Positions 5,751 through 35,115 of a stretch of DNA of 64,000 bases are shown here, piece by piece. This stretch comes from Bacteroidota bacterium (GTDB lineage Bacteria; Bacteroidota; Bacteroidia; B-17B0; Aurantibacillaceae), in contig JAFLBH010000002.1 in the NCBI GenBank assembly GCA_017303905.1, positions 434,001-498,000 of the forward strand, written 5' to 3'. Below the pieces are notes generated by a model. It saw only the letters and a list, made by a program, of their open reading frames with translations, did not search any database and was not told the origin of the DNA. Numbering within the stretch: the first letter of the stretch is position 1; the number at the start of each line of letters is the position of its first letter. The position numbers and the translations under genes were made by a program.

Positions 5751-6233
5751 TTAAGTCTTACGGGTCGTGTAATGTTCGCACTTTCCTTTTTCCTTCAAGT
5801 TACGGCATTTTGCGAAAAAATTCAAGGAATGATGGAAAATATCAAAGTTCAGAATATTCTCCGTCATCTTTTGTATCTGCATCACTCGCGGATCGCAGAA
5901 CTCAAACACTTTTTCGCAATCGCTGCAAATTAAATGATCGTGTTGCTTATACTTATAGGCTTTTTCAAATTGTGCTAAATTTTTTCCGAACTGGTGTTTA
6001 ATTACCAATCCTGCATCCAACATTAACTCGATGTTGTTGTACAAAGTAGCACGACTTACCCTATACTTTTTATTTTTCATCATGAGGTACAATCCTTCAA
6101 TGTCGAAGTGTCCCTCATGAGAATATATTTCATTCAATATCGCAAAACGTTCCGCTGTTTTACGGTGTCCGTTTTGCTCGAGGTAATCTGTAAGGATTTT
6201 CGTTACCGCTTCCTTTGTTTCCTCGTTATTCAT
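5751..6233 (-). CDS. Fur-family metal- or redox-responsive repressor
   Basis: A 160-residue Fur-family transcriptional regulator. The N-terminal winged helix spans about 10-85 ([20 protein letters not shown], then [20 protein letters not shown]). The C-terminal dimerisation part has [15 protein letters not shown] and the second cysteine pair [10 protein letters not shown], together the usual structural Cys4 zinc site. The region between the two cysteine pairs is short in the usual His/Glu ligands. Whether it senses iron, zinc or peroxide cannot be decided from sequence. Its start is 6 bases from the stop of the upstream prolyl isomerase on the same strand, so it is probably the last gene of the 9689-5751 transcript. 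Confidence 0.9.
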
Positions 6234-30066: not shown

Positions 30067-30096
30067 TTGTTTTATAAAAATTGTTAGCTATATTTG
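30067..30096 (+). promoter_or_regulatory. Bacteroidota-type promoter, TTG-N19-TATATTTG
   Basis: TTG at 30067-30069, exactly 19 bases, then TATATTTG at 30089-30096, matching the -33/-7 consensus (TTG, TAnnTTTG) of the Bacteroidota primary sigma factor. The predicted transcription start is about 30102-30103. The candidate start codons are at 30101 and 30107, so the mRNA would be leaderless or nearly so. Confidence 0.6.
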
Positions 30097-30106
30097 TTAT
30101 ATGATT

Positions 30107-30436
30107 ATGAAATCGAAAATAGCAAAAATCAGTGCCCTAGCTGTTTTGTTTTTAACGGTTTTATGGATTGCAACTCCAAAAGTGTATGTACACAAGTTGT
30201 TAAACCATAATCATGAGCTTATTCATACCAACGGAGAAACCTCCGTGCAAACAGATGCAAACCCAGACTGCGATTTTGACAAGTATGATGCTCCTATTTA
30301 TTTCACCATTTTCAAATTCATCAACAACTTCGTTCCTTTAAAACCTAAACACGAAGCTGTATTAAATTACCAGTCTACTTTTTACAAGTCATTTGTAAAA
30401 GAATCTGATACTTCGCGCGCTCCTCCAAGAGCTTAA
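30107..30436 (+). CDS. Small exported protein with His-rich loop, metal-locus member A
   Basis: About 109 residues from ATG 30107 (ATG 30101 is also possible). A signal or anchor helix (SKIAKISALAVLFLTVLWIA) is followed by a His-rich stretch HKLLNHNHELIHTN, then acidic and aromatic segments and the terminal SRAPPRA. I recognise no named family, but the terminal R-(A/G)-P-P is shared with the next protein (YLRGPPSFI), so the two look like relatives. It is first in a probable four-gene transcript with a TonB-dependent receptor. Histidines suggest zinc or copper binding. Confidence 0.7.
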   Translation: MKSKIAKISALAVLFLTVLWIATPKVYVHKLLNHNHELIHTNGETSVQTDANPDCDFDKYDAPIYFTIFKFINNFVPLKPKHEAVLNYQSTFYKSFVKESDTSRAPPRA

Positions 30437-30478
30437 TCATCCGCGTATCATTTTATTTCATTCATTATTTAATCTTAT

Positions 30479-30892
30479 TTGAGATATTTCAAAAACATAT
30501 CTGTATTTACACGTATTCTAATGGCAAATTTGCTTTGCCTTGGTATTGTTTTTAATATCACTTCTACTGCCTTTCATGCCCAACTGCATCATCATCATGA
30601 AGCTGAAACGGTTTGTAGTGTAGAGTTAGATAATGACGCGTGCCACTTATTTGAAGTACACAATATAAAAAGTGAAAACTGTGATGGAAGTCACGATCAT
30701 ATTAAACCGAAAAACGAGGATTGCTTTACCTGTAAATATTTTAGTTACCGATCATTGGATTTTATCCAAAACAAATCTGATACAAAAATTACTATTCAAG
30801 TCACGGTAGAGCCTTATCAAACATTAAACGAGTGTGTTTATTTTAATTATTCTTTCACGAATTATCTGCGTGGACCACCTTCTTTTATTTAA
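30479..30892 (+). CDS. Small exported His/Cys-rich protein, metal-locus member B
   Basis: 137 residues from a TTG start (ATG at 30521 is the other option, cutting the basic start of the signal peptide). The signal peptide runs to about FNITSTAFHAQ. It is followed by LHHHHEAETVC, further Cys and His in DNDACHLFEVH, NCDGSHDH and the paired motif DCFTCKYFS. The end is LRGPPSFI, as in the preceding protein's RAPPRA. It has a dense ligand set (at least seven His and five Cys in 90 residues) that would bind a soft metal or zinc. It is 36 bases upstream of the TonB-dependent receptor frame. Family unknown. Confidence 0.75.
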   Translation: MRYFKNISVFTRILMANLLCLGIVFNITSTAFHAQLHHHHEAETVCSVELDNDACHLFEVHNIKSENCDGSHDHIKPKNEDCFTCKYFSYRSLDFIQNKSDTKITIQVTVEPYQTLNECVYFNYSFTNYLRGPPSFI

Positions 30893-30931
30893 CCTGAATT
30901 CTAAATACGGATTAAATAAAAACAACGAATA

Positions 30932-33256
30932 ATTAAGCGAATCATTTTACATATTCTCTTCTTATTCCCGTTTTTTAACCTGCATGCGCAAGAATGTAAA
31001 TTTACCTTATCGGGTAAAATTATCGATTTGCATGACGGTAAAGAACTGGACGGGACTGTTATTACCTTATTGGAGACGAAGAACAATTATGTAACCAATA
31101 ATCATGGCCGTTTTTCGATAAGCGGTTTATGCGAAGGAAATTATTCTTTATTAATTCAGCATTTAGGATGTAAGGACACCATAATTAAAACCATGGTGAA
31201 ACAAAACTCCTTCTTATCGGTAAAATTACCACACAGCGAGATTGAGTTAAGTGAAATTGACATCATGGATAAGCGTCTGGAGATGGTGAAAACACAAACA
31301 GCAGATGAAATTAGCGGCAAAGAATTAGATAAAACACGCGGACAAACATTAGGAGATGCGCTTAAAACAGTTACGGGAGTTACTACATTAAATACAGGAG
31401 GCACGATCAGTAAACCGATGATTCACGGATTGCAAGGATATAGAATTCTCATTTTGAATAATGGAATCCGACATGAAGGACAACAATGGGGCAATGAACA
31501 CGCACCGGAAATTGATCCGTTCGTTGCGCAAAAATTATCGGTTGTAAAAGGTGCCAATTCTGTTCGCTATGGAAGTGATGCTTTAGGCGGCGTAATCTTA
31601 GTTGAGCCGGCCGATTTACCCGATACGGCCAGTGTAACCGGTGAAGTAAACATGATTGGAGCCAGCAATGGTCAATCAGGAACCGGCTCGGCCATTTTGC
31701 AAGGCTACTTCGATAAGTTAAAAGGATTCAATTGGAGAGTGCAAGGAACCTATAAGAAAAGTGGTAATGTAAAAACGCCGGAATACTATTTAAAGAATAC
31801 CGGGGTTGAAGAATACAATTTCTCCTATTCTTTAGGTTATCACCGAAAAAAATTAGGTGCAGAAGTTTATTACTCGCAATTCAATACTAAAGTAGGCATC
31901 TTTCCGGGAGCGCACATTGGTAATTTAACTGATTTACAAAATGCGTTTAATGCCAATAAACCTCAGGATAGTTTAGCGGGTTTCTCTTATGATATCGGAA
32001 GACCCTATCAGCAAATTGGTCATGAATTAGCGAAAGGAAAACTGCACTATCATTTTGCACCAAAGTGGAGATTGATGGCTCAATACGCTTATCAATATAA
32101 TTCGCGTCAGGAATTTGATAAAGACAAACCTTTGAATGATTCACTCGCCTCTTTAAACTTACCTGAGTTGGATTACAGCATCACGTCGCAAACCGCAGAG
32201 CTTGTTTTGGAGCACGATAACATCAAACGATTCAGAGGGCAATTTGGAGGCAGTTATATGAACCAACAAAATGTTTATTTAGGGCGTTTCTTTATTCCCA
32301 ATTTCATCAACAATACCTGGGGTGCTTTCGCGACCGAACGATTTGTTACTGAACATTGGGAACTTGAAGCCGGCCTTAGATACGATGAAAAATATCTTCA
32401 GTCATTCTTCTATGAGAACAAAATTCTTGTAACACCATCTTTAAAGTTTAATAATGTAAGTTGGAATGCCGGTGCCATTTATAAACAGGGTAAATATTTA
32501 AATCTGTTTTTAAATATTGGCTCAGCCTGGCGCAGTCCTGCTCCAAATGAACTTTACAGTAATGGCATTCATCAAAGTGTTGGGGCAATTGAAAGAGGAA
32601 ATAAAAACTTATTACCTGAACAAGTTTACAATGCTACATTCACGGCTTTGCTTAAATTAAACCATGTTTTTACAGAGGCAACCTTGTATCATAATCAGTT
32701 TACCAATTTCATTTATTTAAATCCATCTACCAAACCTGAACTTACCATAAAAGGCGCGTATCCGGTATTTAATTATCAGCAAGCAAATGCCAGAATCAGC
32801 GGAGCGGATGTAAAAGTAACTACAGATGTATTCAATCATTTGAAAGTAACCGCAAAGGCCATGTTACTCAGAGCATGGAATGAAAACCTCAACGACTATT
32901 TAGTATACATGCCTTCCGACCGTTATACCGCAGAGGTAAATTATTATTTCAATGCAGGAAAACATTTCAGTAATAATTTTATTCAAGTGAATTATACTTA
33001 TGTAACTAAACAATGGCGCGTACCTCAAAACACGGATTTTGCAGCGCCTCCTGATGGTTACGGACTACTTGGATTTGAAATTGGAAGTGATTTAAAATTC
33101 GGAAAACAAACTGTTAACCTCAGCCTTGCAGGAAATAATTTACTTGATGTTGTTTACCGCGATTATCTCGACCGCTTCCGCTATTATACAGACGCTATGG
33201 GAAGAAATTTCACTATTAGATTAAAAATTCCATTAACTATTTACGACAAAAAATAA
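30932..33256 (+). CDS. TonB-dependent outer-membrane receptor, probable metal uptake
   Basis: About 774 residues. An open frame runs from 30920 after a stop at 30917-30919. It encodes a good signal peptide (KRIILHILFLFPFFNLHAQ) but contains no ATG, GTG or TTG before it; the only candidates are ATA at 30929 or ATT at 30932. The next standard start, TTG at 31028, lies after the signal peptide and would yield a protein that cannot be exported. The mature part has a carboxypeptidase-regulatory-like domain (about 20-100), a plug (GKELDKTRGQTLGDALKTV, then KPMIHGLQGYRILILNNGIR) with GNEHAPEIDPF, and a beta barrel to the terminal aromatic strand. The receptor resembles those for metals. It is followed 4 bases later by a lipoprotein gene. 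Confidence 0.9.
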   Translation: MKRIILHILFLFPFFNLHAQECKFTLSGKIIDLHDGKELDGTVITLLETKNNYVTNNHGRFSISGLCEGNYSLLIQHLGCKDTIIKTMVKQNSFLSVKLPHSEIELSEIDIMDKRLEMVKTQTADEISGKELDKTRGQTLGDALKTVTGVTTLNTGGTISKPMIHGLQGYRILILNNGIRHEGQQWGNEHAPEIDPFVAQKLSVVKGANSVRYGSDALGGVILVEPADLPDTASVTGEVNMIGASNGQSGTGSAILQGYFDKLKGFNWRVQGTYKKSGNVKTPEYYLKNTGVEEYNFSYSLGYHRKKLGAEVYYSQFNTKVGIFPGAHIGNLTDLQNAFNANKPQDSLAGFSYDIGRPYQQIGHELAKGKLHYHFAPKWRLMAQYAYQYNSRQEFDKDKPLNDSLASLNLPELDYSITSQTAELVLEHDNIKRFRGQFGGSYMNQQNVYLGRFFIPNFINNTWGAFATERFVTEHWELEAGLRYDEKYLQSFFYENKILVTPSLKFNNVSWNAGAIYKQGKYLNLFLNIGSAWRSPAPNELYSNGIHQSVGAIERGNKNLLPEQVYNATFTALLKLNHVFTEATLYHNQFTNFIYLNPSTKPELTIKGAYPVFNYQQANARISGADVKVTTDVFNHLKVTAKAMLLRAWNENLNDYLVYMPSDRYTAEVNYYFNAGKHFSNNFIQVNYTYVTKQWRVPQNTDFAAPPDGYGLLGFEIGSDLKFGKQTVNLSLAGNNLLDVVYRDYLDRFRYYTDAMGRNFTIRLKIPLTIYDKK

Positions 33257-33260
33257 AATC

Positions 33261-33914
33261 ATGAAAACACTATTTAAATTATCAAGTCTACTAATTACTG
33301 CTACACTCTTATTAAGTTTATCTTGTAAGAAAAAGAAAAACGAACCGGCTCCTAGCAATCCGCTCCCTCCCGACAACGCTTCAGAAGTTATAACAACCTT
33401 TAAATTATTACTTACGGATTCGGCCACCAGCACTGTTTATACATTTATGTATAAAGACCCGGATGGGGATGGTGGACAAGCAGGGTTTTATGGTCCTGGT
33501 ACAAGCAGTCTCTCTACCCAAAGCGATTCGGTTTTTAATTTGAGTCCTAATACAACTTATTTTACAGAAATAGTCTTATTAGACGAAACAAAAAGTCCGG
33601 TTGATTCCATATCGAATGAAGTTGAAGAAGAAGGACAAGACCATATGTTTTTCTTTAATTCTACCAATCCAACCGGGTCACCTTATAGTTTAACATTAGG
33701 TGGATCGGGTATACATCTTATTTACACCGATCTTGACGGAGGTTCGCCACAAAGAGGAATCGGACTTAAAACAAGATGGAGAACATATGCTGCAACCGGC
33801 ACTACAAAACATCCATTAAACATCATATTAAAGCACCAACCGGGAACCAAAAACGGAACCATTACCCCGGGGGACACCGATGTAGATGTTAATTTTAAAA
33901 TGACTGTGCAATAA
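33261..33914 (+). CDS. Lipoprotein downstream of TonB-dependent receptor
   Basis: 217 residues. The lipobox is LLSLSCKKKK, with a Lys-rich then Pro-rich linker. The mature domain is beta-rich: EVITTFKLLLTDSATSTVYT, MYKDPDGDGGQAG, NLSPNTTYFTEIVLLDETK, EEEGQDHMFFFN, then a C-terminal ILKHQPGTKNG and PGDTDVDVNFKMTV. This is the plan of small Bacteroidota lipoproteins that regularly follow a TonB-dependent receptor; some databases call them type 1 periplasmic-binding-fold superfamily. The Asp-rich DPDGDG and the single His in QDHMF may contact metal. It probably hands a metal or ligand between receptor and periplasm, by inference from position. The transcript ends at the terminator 23 bases later. 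Confidence 0.82.
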   Translation: MKTLFKLSSLLITATLLLSLSCKKKKNEPAPSNPLPPDNASEVITTFKLLLTDSATSTVYTFMYKDPDGDGGQAGFYGPGTSSLSTQSDSVFNLSPNTTYFTEIVLLDETKSPVDSISNEVEEEGQDHMFFFNSTNPTGSPYSLTLGGSGIHLIYTDLDGGSPQRGIGLKTRWRTYAATGTTKHPLNIILKHQPGTKNGTITPGDTDVDVNFKMTVQ

Positions 33915-33936
33915 GTCTAAATACTAAGTTTAATTG

Positions 33937-33970
33937 AACGGACCAATATTAAAGCATTGGTCCGTTTTTA
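33937..33970 (+). terminator. Terminator ending the metal-locus transcript
   Basis: A perfect 11-bp stem AACGGACCAAT / ATTGGTCCGTT with an 8-base loop is followed by TTTTA. Confidence 0.88.
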
Positions 33971-34036: not shown

Positions 34037-34056
34037 ATTATATGAAAATCCGAAAG

Positions 34057-35115
34057 ATGAAAAAGAAAATACTTACACTTTTAATTTTCATAACTCCATT
34101 CTTAACCTTTTCACAACACCTTCACCCTGCCATTAATTTTGATTATAACAATCTATGTTACGGCGGATTTACTTTTTTCACCAATACAACAGTATCCAAT
34201 GCCCCGGCTACTTATACATGGTCGGTTTTCCGACAAGGATTTGCCCAACCGGTTTATACCGTTGCAACAGTGAATATGACCTATCAATTTCCTGCAAAAG
34301 ATACTTACACCATATTACTTTGCGCTGATAACGGAGGCGGGCATCAGGATTGTATGGAGCAACGAATCATTATGGATTCATTAATTCACGCCGACTTCCA
34401 ATACATTGATTGCGACAGTAAATTCAGTTCGTTTAGTCCCTGTGCCACAAGCCAGAAATGGGATTTTGGTGACGGAAATACTTCTACTTTAAAAAATCCT
34501 ACTCATTATTATGCCAATACAGGAAGTTACAATGTAAAACTTGTGGTTAGTAATGGTACCGATAAAGATTCAATCACAAAATCAATTTTTTCTTATACGA
34601 ATGCTGTTACCGGTGCTTTTACGTATCGTCACGAAAAGGACTCTGTGTTTTTTATGGCACACGATACCACTTTGGGTGGAAATGTAACATATCATTGGGA
34701 TTTTGGTGATGGAACCGAGGAAGAGATTTTCAGTTTCCCGGGACAAAAAGTAAGACATAAATATCCATCTATTAAAAAAGACACCACTTACACGGTTCAC
34801 TTACATGTTGAGGTTTTTTGTAATGAATGGGAAACAGAGCAAGATGTATTTATTGCGGATAGCGTAAAAGCGACTGAAACATTGGTGTTTCCTAACCCGT
34901 CCAGTCACCTTATATATATAGAATCGGAGCGTAAAACAGAGTTAACGGATATTAAATTATTTGATATACTCGGACAAGAAATTAAAGGCTTGAATGCAAT
35001 TGAGAATTTAAGAGGATTTAATATTGATATCAGAAACCTGGCCAAAGCCACTTACATCTTGCGATTATATTATGGCACAGATGATGTTAAGACTTACAAA
35101 ATCATTGTTAATTAA
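34057..35115 (+). CDS. T9SS-secreted PKD-domain protein
   Basis: About 352 residues from ATG 34057, chosen because a promoter occupies 34006-34036 and because KKKILTLLIFITPFLTFSQ then forms an ordinary signal peptide; ATG 34042 is the alternative. It contains two PKD domains: QKWDFGDGNTSTLKNPTHYY, and YHWDFGDGTEEEIFSF with the RHKYPS turn. It ends with a type A T9SS sorting domain (TLVFPNPSSHLIYIES, KLFDILGQEIK, LAKATYILRL). PKD domains mediate protein or sugar contacts; no catalytic motif is visible. It stands alone between two terminators. Confidence 0.9.
   Translation: MKKKILTLLIFITPFLTFSQHLHPAINFDYNNLCYGGFTFFTNTTVSNAPATYTWSVFRQGFAQPVYTVATVNMTYQFPAKDTYTILLCADNGGGHQDCMEQRIIMDSLIHADFQYIDCDSKFSSFSPCATSQKWDFGDGNTSTLKNPTHYYANTGSYNVKLVVSNGTDKDSITKSIFSYTNAVTGAFTYRHEKDSVFFMAHDTTLGGNVTYHWDFGDGTEEEIFSFPGQKVRHKYPSIKKDTTYTVHLHVEVFCNEWETEQDVFIADSVKATETLVFPNPSSHLIYIESERKTELTDIKLFDILGQEIKGLNAIENLRGFNIDIRNLAKATYILRLYYGTDDVKTYKIIVN

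Follow-up and report, generated by a model that had tools for sequence, protein, structure and literature searches.

What role do two small His/Cys-rich proteins play when they are encoded directly ahead of a TonB-dependent receptor? This question is raised by a locus within a stretch of 64,000 nt of Bacteroidota DNA (hereafter the window), and to our knowledge, the control of metal uptake in Bacteroidota has been little studied. The initial annotation took the two proteins for metallophore-like scavengers or periplasmic metal buffers feeding the receptor, in a system that it could not name. However, these proteins share an arrest motif whose spacing from a Cys hardly changes although most other positions vary, so the scavenger or buffer role is not the best reading, and upstream ORFs of the CruR/CutF type before TonB transporters have already been published. 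Herein, we propose that the two ORFs (ORF1 and ORF2) quite probably encode a tandem of leader peptides similar in kind to CruR/CutF, whose translation arrest would respond to metal and which would control a predicted ZnuD-like receptor and a lipoprotein in cis.

Organization of the proposed operon

The + strand carries all four genes, which confirmed the annotated series of two small His/Cys-rich proteins with a shared R-(A/G)-P-P end, then a TonB receptor and a lipoprotein. A promoter candidate was also found ahead of ORF1: although the sigma-70 scan listed none there, a Bacteroidota-type candidate was predicted at 30067-30096 (+), with TTG at 30067-30069, 19 nt, and the box TATATTTG at 30089-30096. 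Given that only 4 nt separate the end of the TATATTTG box from the first ATG of ORF1, the ORF1 mRNA may be leaderless. Among the 87 sensor ORFs defined below, 41 had a TAnnTTTG box 0-12 nt ahead of the chosen start, compared with 25 of 529 control ORFs (first ATG), and the sensor ORFs, which often begin 1-10 nt past such a box, may be translated from leaderless mRNAs.

The gaps between the first three genes are short. The ORF1-ORF2 gap (30437-30478, +) has 42 nt and no significant structure (folds z 0.2 and -0.5), and the ORF2-receptor gap (30893-30931, +) has 39 nt and folds with the receptor start at z -0.5. The end of ORF2 into the receptor gave a weak fold (z -1.9, 7 of 200 shuffles as good). 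With all folds at chance except this weak one, an RNA switch in the gaps was set aside as less likely.

The strong terminator of the initial annotation agrees with the predicted folding: the hairpin at 33936-33967 (+; 12-bp stem, 8-nt loop, U-tract), which the scan did not list, folds strongly (-19.2 kcal/mol, z -6.6). Downstream of the operon lies a PKD-domain gene (34051-35115) with a Por secretion C-terminal signal. Between the window and the sister genome G006, synonymous/nonsynonymous differences numbered 4/0 in ORF1, 4/7 in ORF2, 89/27 in the receptor gene, and 49/16 in the lipoprotein gene.

ORF1 and ORF2 carry arrest motifs and different His/Cys sites

ORF1 (30101-30436, +) encodes 111 aa from an ATG at 30101 or 30107 to a TAA stop, with a hydrophobic N-terminus and the ending SRAPPRA. 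Its proposed stall site is formed by the RAPP codons at 30416-30427 (+). ORF2 (30479-30892, +) encodes 137 aa from a TTG start to a TAA stop, likewise with a hydrophobic N-terminus, and ends in NYLRGPPSFI; the proposed stall site is at the RGPP codons (30869-30880, +). The TTG start fits the four database homologues, all of which begin with MRYFK. RAPP and RGPP are published ribosome-arrest motifs (PMC12992588, PMC9426467), and among the window's 56 mechanical ORFs that reach 110 aa, R[AG]PP occurred in 2 only, ORF1 and ORF2.

The His and Cys residues of the two proteins are arranged differently. ORF1 has H31, H36, and H38 and a single C57 without any CxxC, and in the alignment of 18 sequences of its type P26, Y29, H31, H36, H38, C57, R106, P108, and P109 were invariant, the kept features being PxxYxH, HxH, and one Cys. 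ORF2 has HHHH, HxH (H72, H74), and the CxxC motif CFTC (C82-C85; 30722-30733, +), with C85 located 46 residues before R131 of RGPP; His, HxH, and CxxC were kept in 13 sequences of its type. Judged by these features, ORF1 and ORF2 are different sensor types. The initial description of the two as a related, paralogous pair is weakly supported: BLASTP gave E 0.05, and the hhalign profile comparison gave 89.6% across the 30 columns that surround the N-terminal His.

A protein search, which reaches only relatives with shared short exact words, returned 47 homologues for ORF1 and 4 for ORF2, the window's own copy not being among them by name. Weaker relatives of ORF2 were found in 8 of 87 family genomes at E ≤ 0.01, own and sister genomes counted and one match marginal. 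Among the eight ORF1 homologues fetched, one (P0125) has RAPT instead of RAPP. Searches of Pfam and NCBIfam gave nothing beyond weak, sub-cut-off matches, and neither ORF1 nor ORF2 matched the DUF2946 profile. HYC_CC_PP, DUF6660, and DUF6769, which were considered as candidate families for the small proteins, matched neither of them, and a literature search on these families gave a single, unrelated paper.

Sensor ORFs precede receptor relatives across the class

A receptor match at E ≤ 1e-40 was present in 165 of 197 genomes of the class, the weaker ones among these probably being other receptor subfamilies. We collected 124 receptor loci (window included) and searched about 1450 nt upstream of each receptor for ORFs of 55-260 aa with ATG, GTG, or TTG starts; a sensor ORF was defined by a C-terminal [RK][AGS]PP and at least three His+Cys. 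Duplicates and sister-genome copies (L001, L033, L049, L052, L059-L062, L074) were dropped before counting, and the distant L055-L058 also stand outside the set, with R[AG]PP ORFs present in L055, L057, and L058. The list of class-wide receptor matches was used down to G070, except for G215, for the matches in G113, G077, and G170, which are partial, and for any second pieces.

A sensor ORF lay upstream of the receptor in 86 of the 124 loci, with 87 such ORFs in all. The other 38 had none in the searched stretch, and in two of them (L116, L166) 100 nt or less could be searched. In a separate family sample, the receptor was found at E ≤ 1e-100 in 47 of 87 genomes, and among the 30 loci listed, every one had at least one sensor and three had two; about ten of these genomes overlap with the 124-locus set. 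The co-occurrence elsewhere that the initial annotation had put forward as a check was thus confirmed within the class.

The motif was specific to its position and strand. R[AG]PP was present in 75 of 336 sense upstream ORFs, versus 0 of 226 antisense and 3 of 242 downstream ORFs, and in the same ORF sets the control A[AG]PP was found 0, 1, and 0 times, respectively. Other motifs in the 336 sense upstream ORFs were K[AG]PP (10) and PP[AG]R (2). The 87 sensors comprised 18 with RAPP, 57 with RGPP, and 12 with other variants, followed by 1-8 residues (median 3). A hydrophobic N-terminus was found in 82 of them by a simple hydropathy cut and an exact CxxC in 47. Mean column identity over the 87 was 16%, and the columns of ORF1 H36 and C57 were conserved in at least 90%. 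DUF2946 matched three of the 87 at E ≤ 0.01 (best 7.1e-6).

Neighboring genes were counted over the fetched stretches, mostly 1500 nt on each side. YidD, a membrane protein insertion factor, was encoded between sensor and receptor in seven of the 124 loci (L034, L035, L036, L039, L040, L051, L054), all with a sensor; the L036 gene matched TIGR00278. In L046, L102, L105, L108, L109, and L123, the lipoprotein gene lies between the sensor and the receptor rather than after the receptor.

A Cys lies at a near-fixed distance from the motif

For each sensor, we measured the distance to the motif from the last Cys lying more than 25 residues upstream of it. In 75 of the 87 sensors, this distance was 44-49 residues, with 49 in ORF1 and 46 in ORF2. 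When each protein was shuffled between residue 25 and the motif, the same band held a mean of 9.6 and a maximum of 20 sensors in 1000 runs, and nine other residues fell in the band in 3-21%. The spacing resembles that of CruR, in which 45 residues lie between CxxC and RAPP, mutants of RAPP abolish expression, a changed CxxC impairs copper control, and a 5-residue insertion strongly reduces it (PMC9426467). If the sensor reading is right, this gives a simple sequence rule for finding such ORFs: a Cys, then 44-49 residues, then [RK]-[AGS]-P-P close to the stop codon. Most sensors of this kind go unrecognized by Pfam and NCBIfam.

The same types of proposed sensor stand before different receptors

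Within this genus, pairs of sensors were found in the window (G000), G006, G002, and G007; a further pair comes from a different genus (G228). Sensors of the ORF2 type stand alone before another receptor in G236 and G233, and before a window-type receptor in G244. G002 and G007 have msrB, a holin-like gene, ORF1, and ORF2 in the window's order, ORF1 being 69% and 67% and ORF2 35% and 37% identical to those of the window, as well as a PKD gene like that downstream in the window (37% and 39%). The PKD gene is followed by frr and thyA in G007, and yfiR lies upstream in G002. The interval from ORF2 to the PKD gene has no lipoprotein gene in either genome, and the receptor encoded there is 28-29% identical to that of the window by global alignment (25-26% by BLASTP). 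The nearest solved structure to this swapped receptor is again ZnuD (E 4.7e-19), and its best NCBIfam model, below cut-off, is a haemoglobin/transferrin receptor subfamily.

Considering that the same sensor types precede receptors that are only 28-29% identical, the sensor types are not tied to one receptor. This fits cis-regulators and is harder to explain for metal carriers of the receptor's own. The ORF2 of G002 is 45% identical to that of G233, 38% to G236, 40% to G244, and 35% to the window; since the identities are mixed, we do not claim that ORF2 and the receptor moved as one unit.

The receptor, the lipoprotein, and the metal

The receptor gene (30932-33256, +) encodes plug, barrel, and carboxypeptidase-regulatory domains. 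Its frame has no ATG, GTG, or TTG ahead of the signal peptide, and translation probably starts at AUU 30932 (ATT AAG CGA ...) and not at TTG 31028 of the ORF list. AUU starts are rare; this one is common to the sister genome G006, and the more distant relatives listed have ATG, GTG, or TTG near there.

In profile searches against the PDB, ZnuD was best (E 3e-53), followed by the TonB-linked receptor 9gbc, OprC, and PhuR. The AlphaFold2 model of the receptor (pLDDT 89.8) was likewise closest to ZnuD by Foldseek (E 1.7e-43), with OprC (copper) and ChuA (haem) close behind. The annotation of a metal-acquisition locus is therefore supported, as ZnuD is nearest by both profile and predicted fold and the small proteins keep their His and Cys. 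All NCBIfam models matched by the receptor were below their cut-offs: a haem/haemoglobin receptor subfamily was best with 165 bits (cut-off 317), and ZnuD was third with 102 bits, far under its cut-off of 950. The zinc ligands of ZnuD are D99, H100, E340, and H499 (PMC4557270). In our alignment, with chain numbering inferred as mature + 14, D99-H100 aligns with receptor E189-H190 and H499 with H547, while E340 lies at the alignment edge and was not placed. Both H190 and H547 were invariant in 60 sequences. Haem receptors use comparable His, so zinc is a best guess; the NCBIfam ranking of haem/haemoglobin before ZnuD and the closeness of OprC and haem receptors to ZnuD in fold also weaken the assignment. 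Zinc, ahead of copper, would be our choice with about an even chance of being right. Copper-related RAPP/RGPP uORFs are reported to be missing from Bacteroidota (PMC12992588), which fits zinc without proving it.

A FUR-family gene adjoins the receptor in four of the 124 loci, all four without a sensor, as if one regulator stood in for the other. None of these four genes reaches an NCBIfam cut-off, and for one of them NCBIfam gave no match at E ≤ 1e-5. A CDF gene was found near the receptor in one locus (L166). Such neighbors, one CDF and four FUR-family genes, are too few to identify the metal. The genome of the window has a single FUR-family match, at 5817-6173 on the - strand, about 24 kb from the operon.

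The lipoprotein (33261-33914, +), a predicted beta-sandwich of a conserved, unnamed family, is a frequent partner of this receptor type. Of 60 related genomes, 22 have it, and a homologue was placed in 66 of the 124 loci, with one gene counted twice because L081 and L166 overlap. In seven of the 124 loci (L042, L043, L050, L064, L070, L071, L094), the gene for this lipoprotein is followed by one for another small lipoprotein (CNKTK...W), and the one tested had no NCBIfam match at E ≤ 1e-5.

Proposed mechanism

The ORFs, the motif and its spacing, position, and conservation, the pairing, and the receptor swap are direct observations; arrest, metal binding, the direction of the response, Rho, the gate logic, and the metal are what we infer for the window. 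When metal is scarce, ribosomes would stall at RAPP and at RGPP, by analogy with CruR, and this would be the ON state, in which transcription continues downstream of the stalled ribosomes and the receptor and lipoprotein are made. During the stall, the Cys 46-49 residues before the motif would have just emerged from the ribosome. With plentiful metal, the nascent chain would bind it through its His/Cys site and the stall would be released, so that transcription or translation would end before the receptor. In CruR, the stall keeps Rho off, and a part for Rho here is a guess by analogy. No rut site could be called, and the 60 nt after the sensor stops are mildly richer in C than in G (0.184 vs 0.136); such G-poor stretches would permit Rho but do not prove it. 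Attenuation by an intrinsic terminator is not favored, since terminator-like hairpins followed the stop in 3 of the 87 sensors (0.8 expected from mononucleotide shuffles), the window not being among the three.

Placed one after the other, the two sensors would form an AND gate, as expression would require a stall at both; either could turn the operon off, with the two set to different metal thresholds or to different metals. More tentatively, and rather doubtfully as a whole, the locus may be a two-input metal gate on the ribosome, in which unlike sensors, one His-based and one CxxC-based and each with an RxPP brake, jointly control a zinc importer. They would then be the first zinc-sensing arrest peptides, in a cassette that is modular across the receptors of sister species.

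The core of the argument for arrest sensors is the parallel with CruR in the CxxC-RAPP distance of 45 and in the effects of RAPP mutants and of CxxC and insertion changes. It is joined by the upstream position, the sense-strand specificity of R[AG]PP, the Cys spacing, and the near-terminal motif, and further by the receptor swap and the presence of FUR-family genes only where a sensor is missing. Against it stand the 38 of 124 loci without a sensor, the lack of CxxC in ORF1, the missing DUF2946 match, and the RAPT of P0125. Moreover, arrest takes more than a RAPP-like motif (PMC12992588), and the proline-rich end of CutF did not cause stalling by itself (PMC9973294). If the reading is true, many members of the class switch ZnuD-like receptors by a nascent protein that senses metal during its own synthesis, and this lineage stacks two such sensors; the pair would be a natural setting in which to study how signals from successive arrest peptides are combined.

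Alternative explanations

ORF1 and ORF2 could instead be finished exported proteins that bind metal and pass it on to the receptor, whether as chaperones, as metallophore-like scavengers, or as buffers in the periplasm. The hydrophobic N-termini in 82 of 87 sensors, the conserved His/Cys (H36 and C57 columns at 90% or more), and the frequency with which small proteins adjoin a metal-type receptor would agree with this, but it leaves unexplained why R-[AG]-P-P stands 1-8 residues from the stop, why the Cys-motif spacing is near-fixed, and why the rest diverges so strongly (16% mean column identity). The published analogues act in cis as nascent chains, CutF being rapidly degraded after export (PMC9973294), and the same two-type pairs precede receptors that differ as much as those of the window and G002/G007. 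We consider this explanation unlikely. Slightly less likely still are arrest peptides that sense protein export or membrane insertion, like SecM, MifM, or VemP, rather than metal. The earliest known RAPP-like arrest peptides lie upstream of genes for protein localisation (PMC12992588, PMC10987492), and all seven loci with YidD between sensor and receptor have a sensor; however, these are only 7 of 124 with none in the window's operon, the downstream genes are metal-type receptors and not sec or yidC, and the conserved His/Cys and the Cys-RxPP spacing match the metal-sensing CruR.

The sign of the response could also be the opposite, with metal promoting the stall, opening the downstream start, and turning the operon ON. 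This is reported for CutF in Rhodobacter (PMC9973294), whose sequence layout is alike, and the fold that spans the ORF2 end, the gap, and the receptor start is slightly better than chance (z -1.9, 7/200 shuffles). But an importer switched on by an excess of its own metal makes little sense. The CutF route needs a stem-loop over the next Shine-Dalgarno, and it is less likely here because the three other gap folds are at chance (z 0.2, -0.5, -0.5), with that one weak exception. We regard this as the least probable of the three, and release of the stall by metal is retained as the preferred reading.

Comparison with known systems

CruR (bp2923, DUF2946) heads the operon cruR-bfrG/crtA-bp2921 (PMC9426467), and its arrest at the RAPP prolines has been shown in vitro (PMC12992588). 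As there, a small uORF of putatively exported type heads the gene order of a TonB transporter in the window, with a RAPP-type C-terminus and a Cys about 45 residues before it; RAPP in CruR lies three residues from the end (PMC9426467), and the motifs in the window are likewise near-terminal. The window differs in having two sensors instead of one, neither of which matches DUF2946. CruR has CxxC, as does ORF2, whereas ORF1 has His and one Cys; the gaps are 42 and 39 nt compared with 162 nt, and the third gene of the CruR operon is PepSY_TM, where the window has a lipoprotein.

Like CutF (cutFOG, Rhodobacter capsulatus), the small proteins combine a putative signal sequence, a candidate metal motif, and a C-terminal proline-rich motif, and cis control of the next gene is proposed here (PMC9973294). 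CutF-like proteins include many from Bacteroidota (40% after normalisation, 19% without), with TonB-like proteins frequently encoded downstream (PMC9973294). The metal motif of CutF is CxxxC, unlike the CxxC of ORF2 and the one Cys of ORF1; in CutF, the stall lasts longer with metal and control depends on a stem-loop that covers the next start, whereas at most a weak fold is found here. As for the receptor, ZnuD (PDB 4rdr/4rdt/4rvw) is the closest solved relative, with its acid-His and His ligands aligned with invariant His, but identity is ~20% and the window's receptor adds an N-terminal carboxypeptidase-regulatory domain.

uORFs with RAPP or RGPP before TonB receptors are described as universal in Gram-negative bacteria (PMC12992588), and those of the window share their motif, position, size, and downstream gene class. 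The published uORFs form a statistical class, and the accessible text of that report mentions neither tandem pairs nor a Bacteroidota Cys spacing nor a receptor-lipoprotein operon. Likewise, in the accessible parts of the literature we found neither a tandem of metal-type RxPP uORFs nor one that responds to zinc. Thus, the kind of switch is already known from CruR, CutF, and the RAPP/RGPP uORFs, and two of them in series likely represent a new arrangement.
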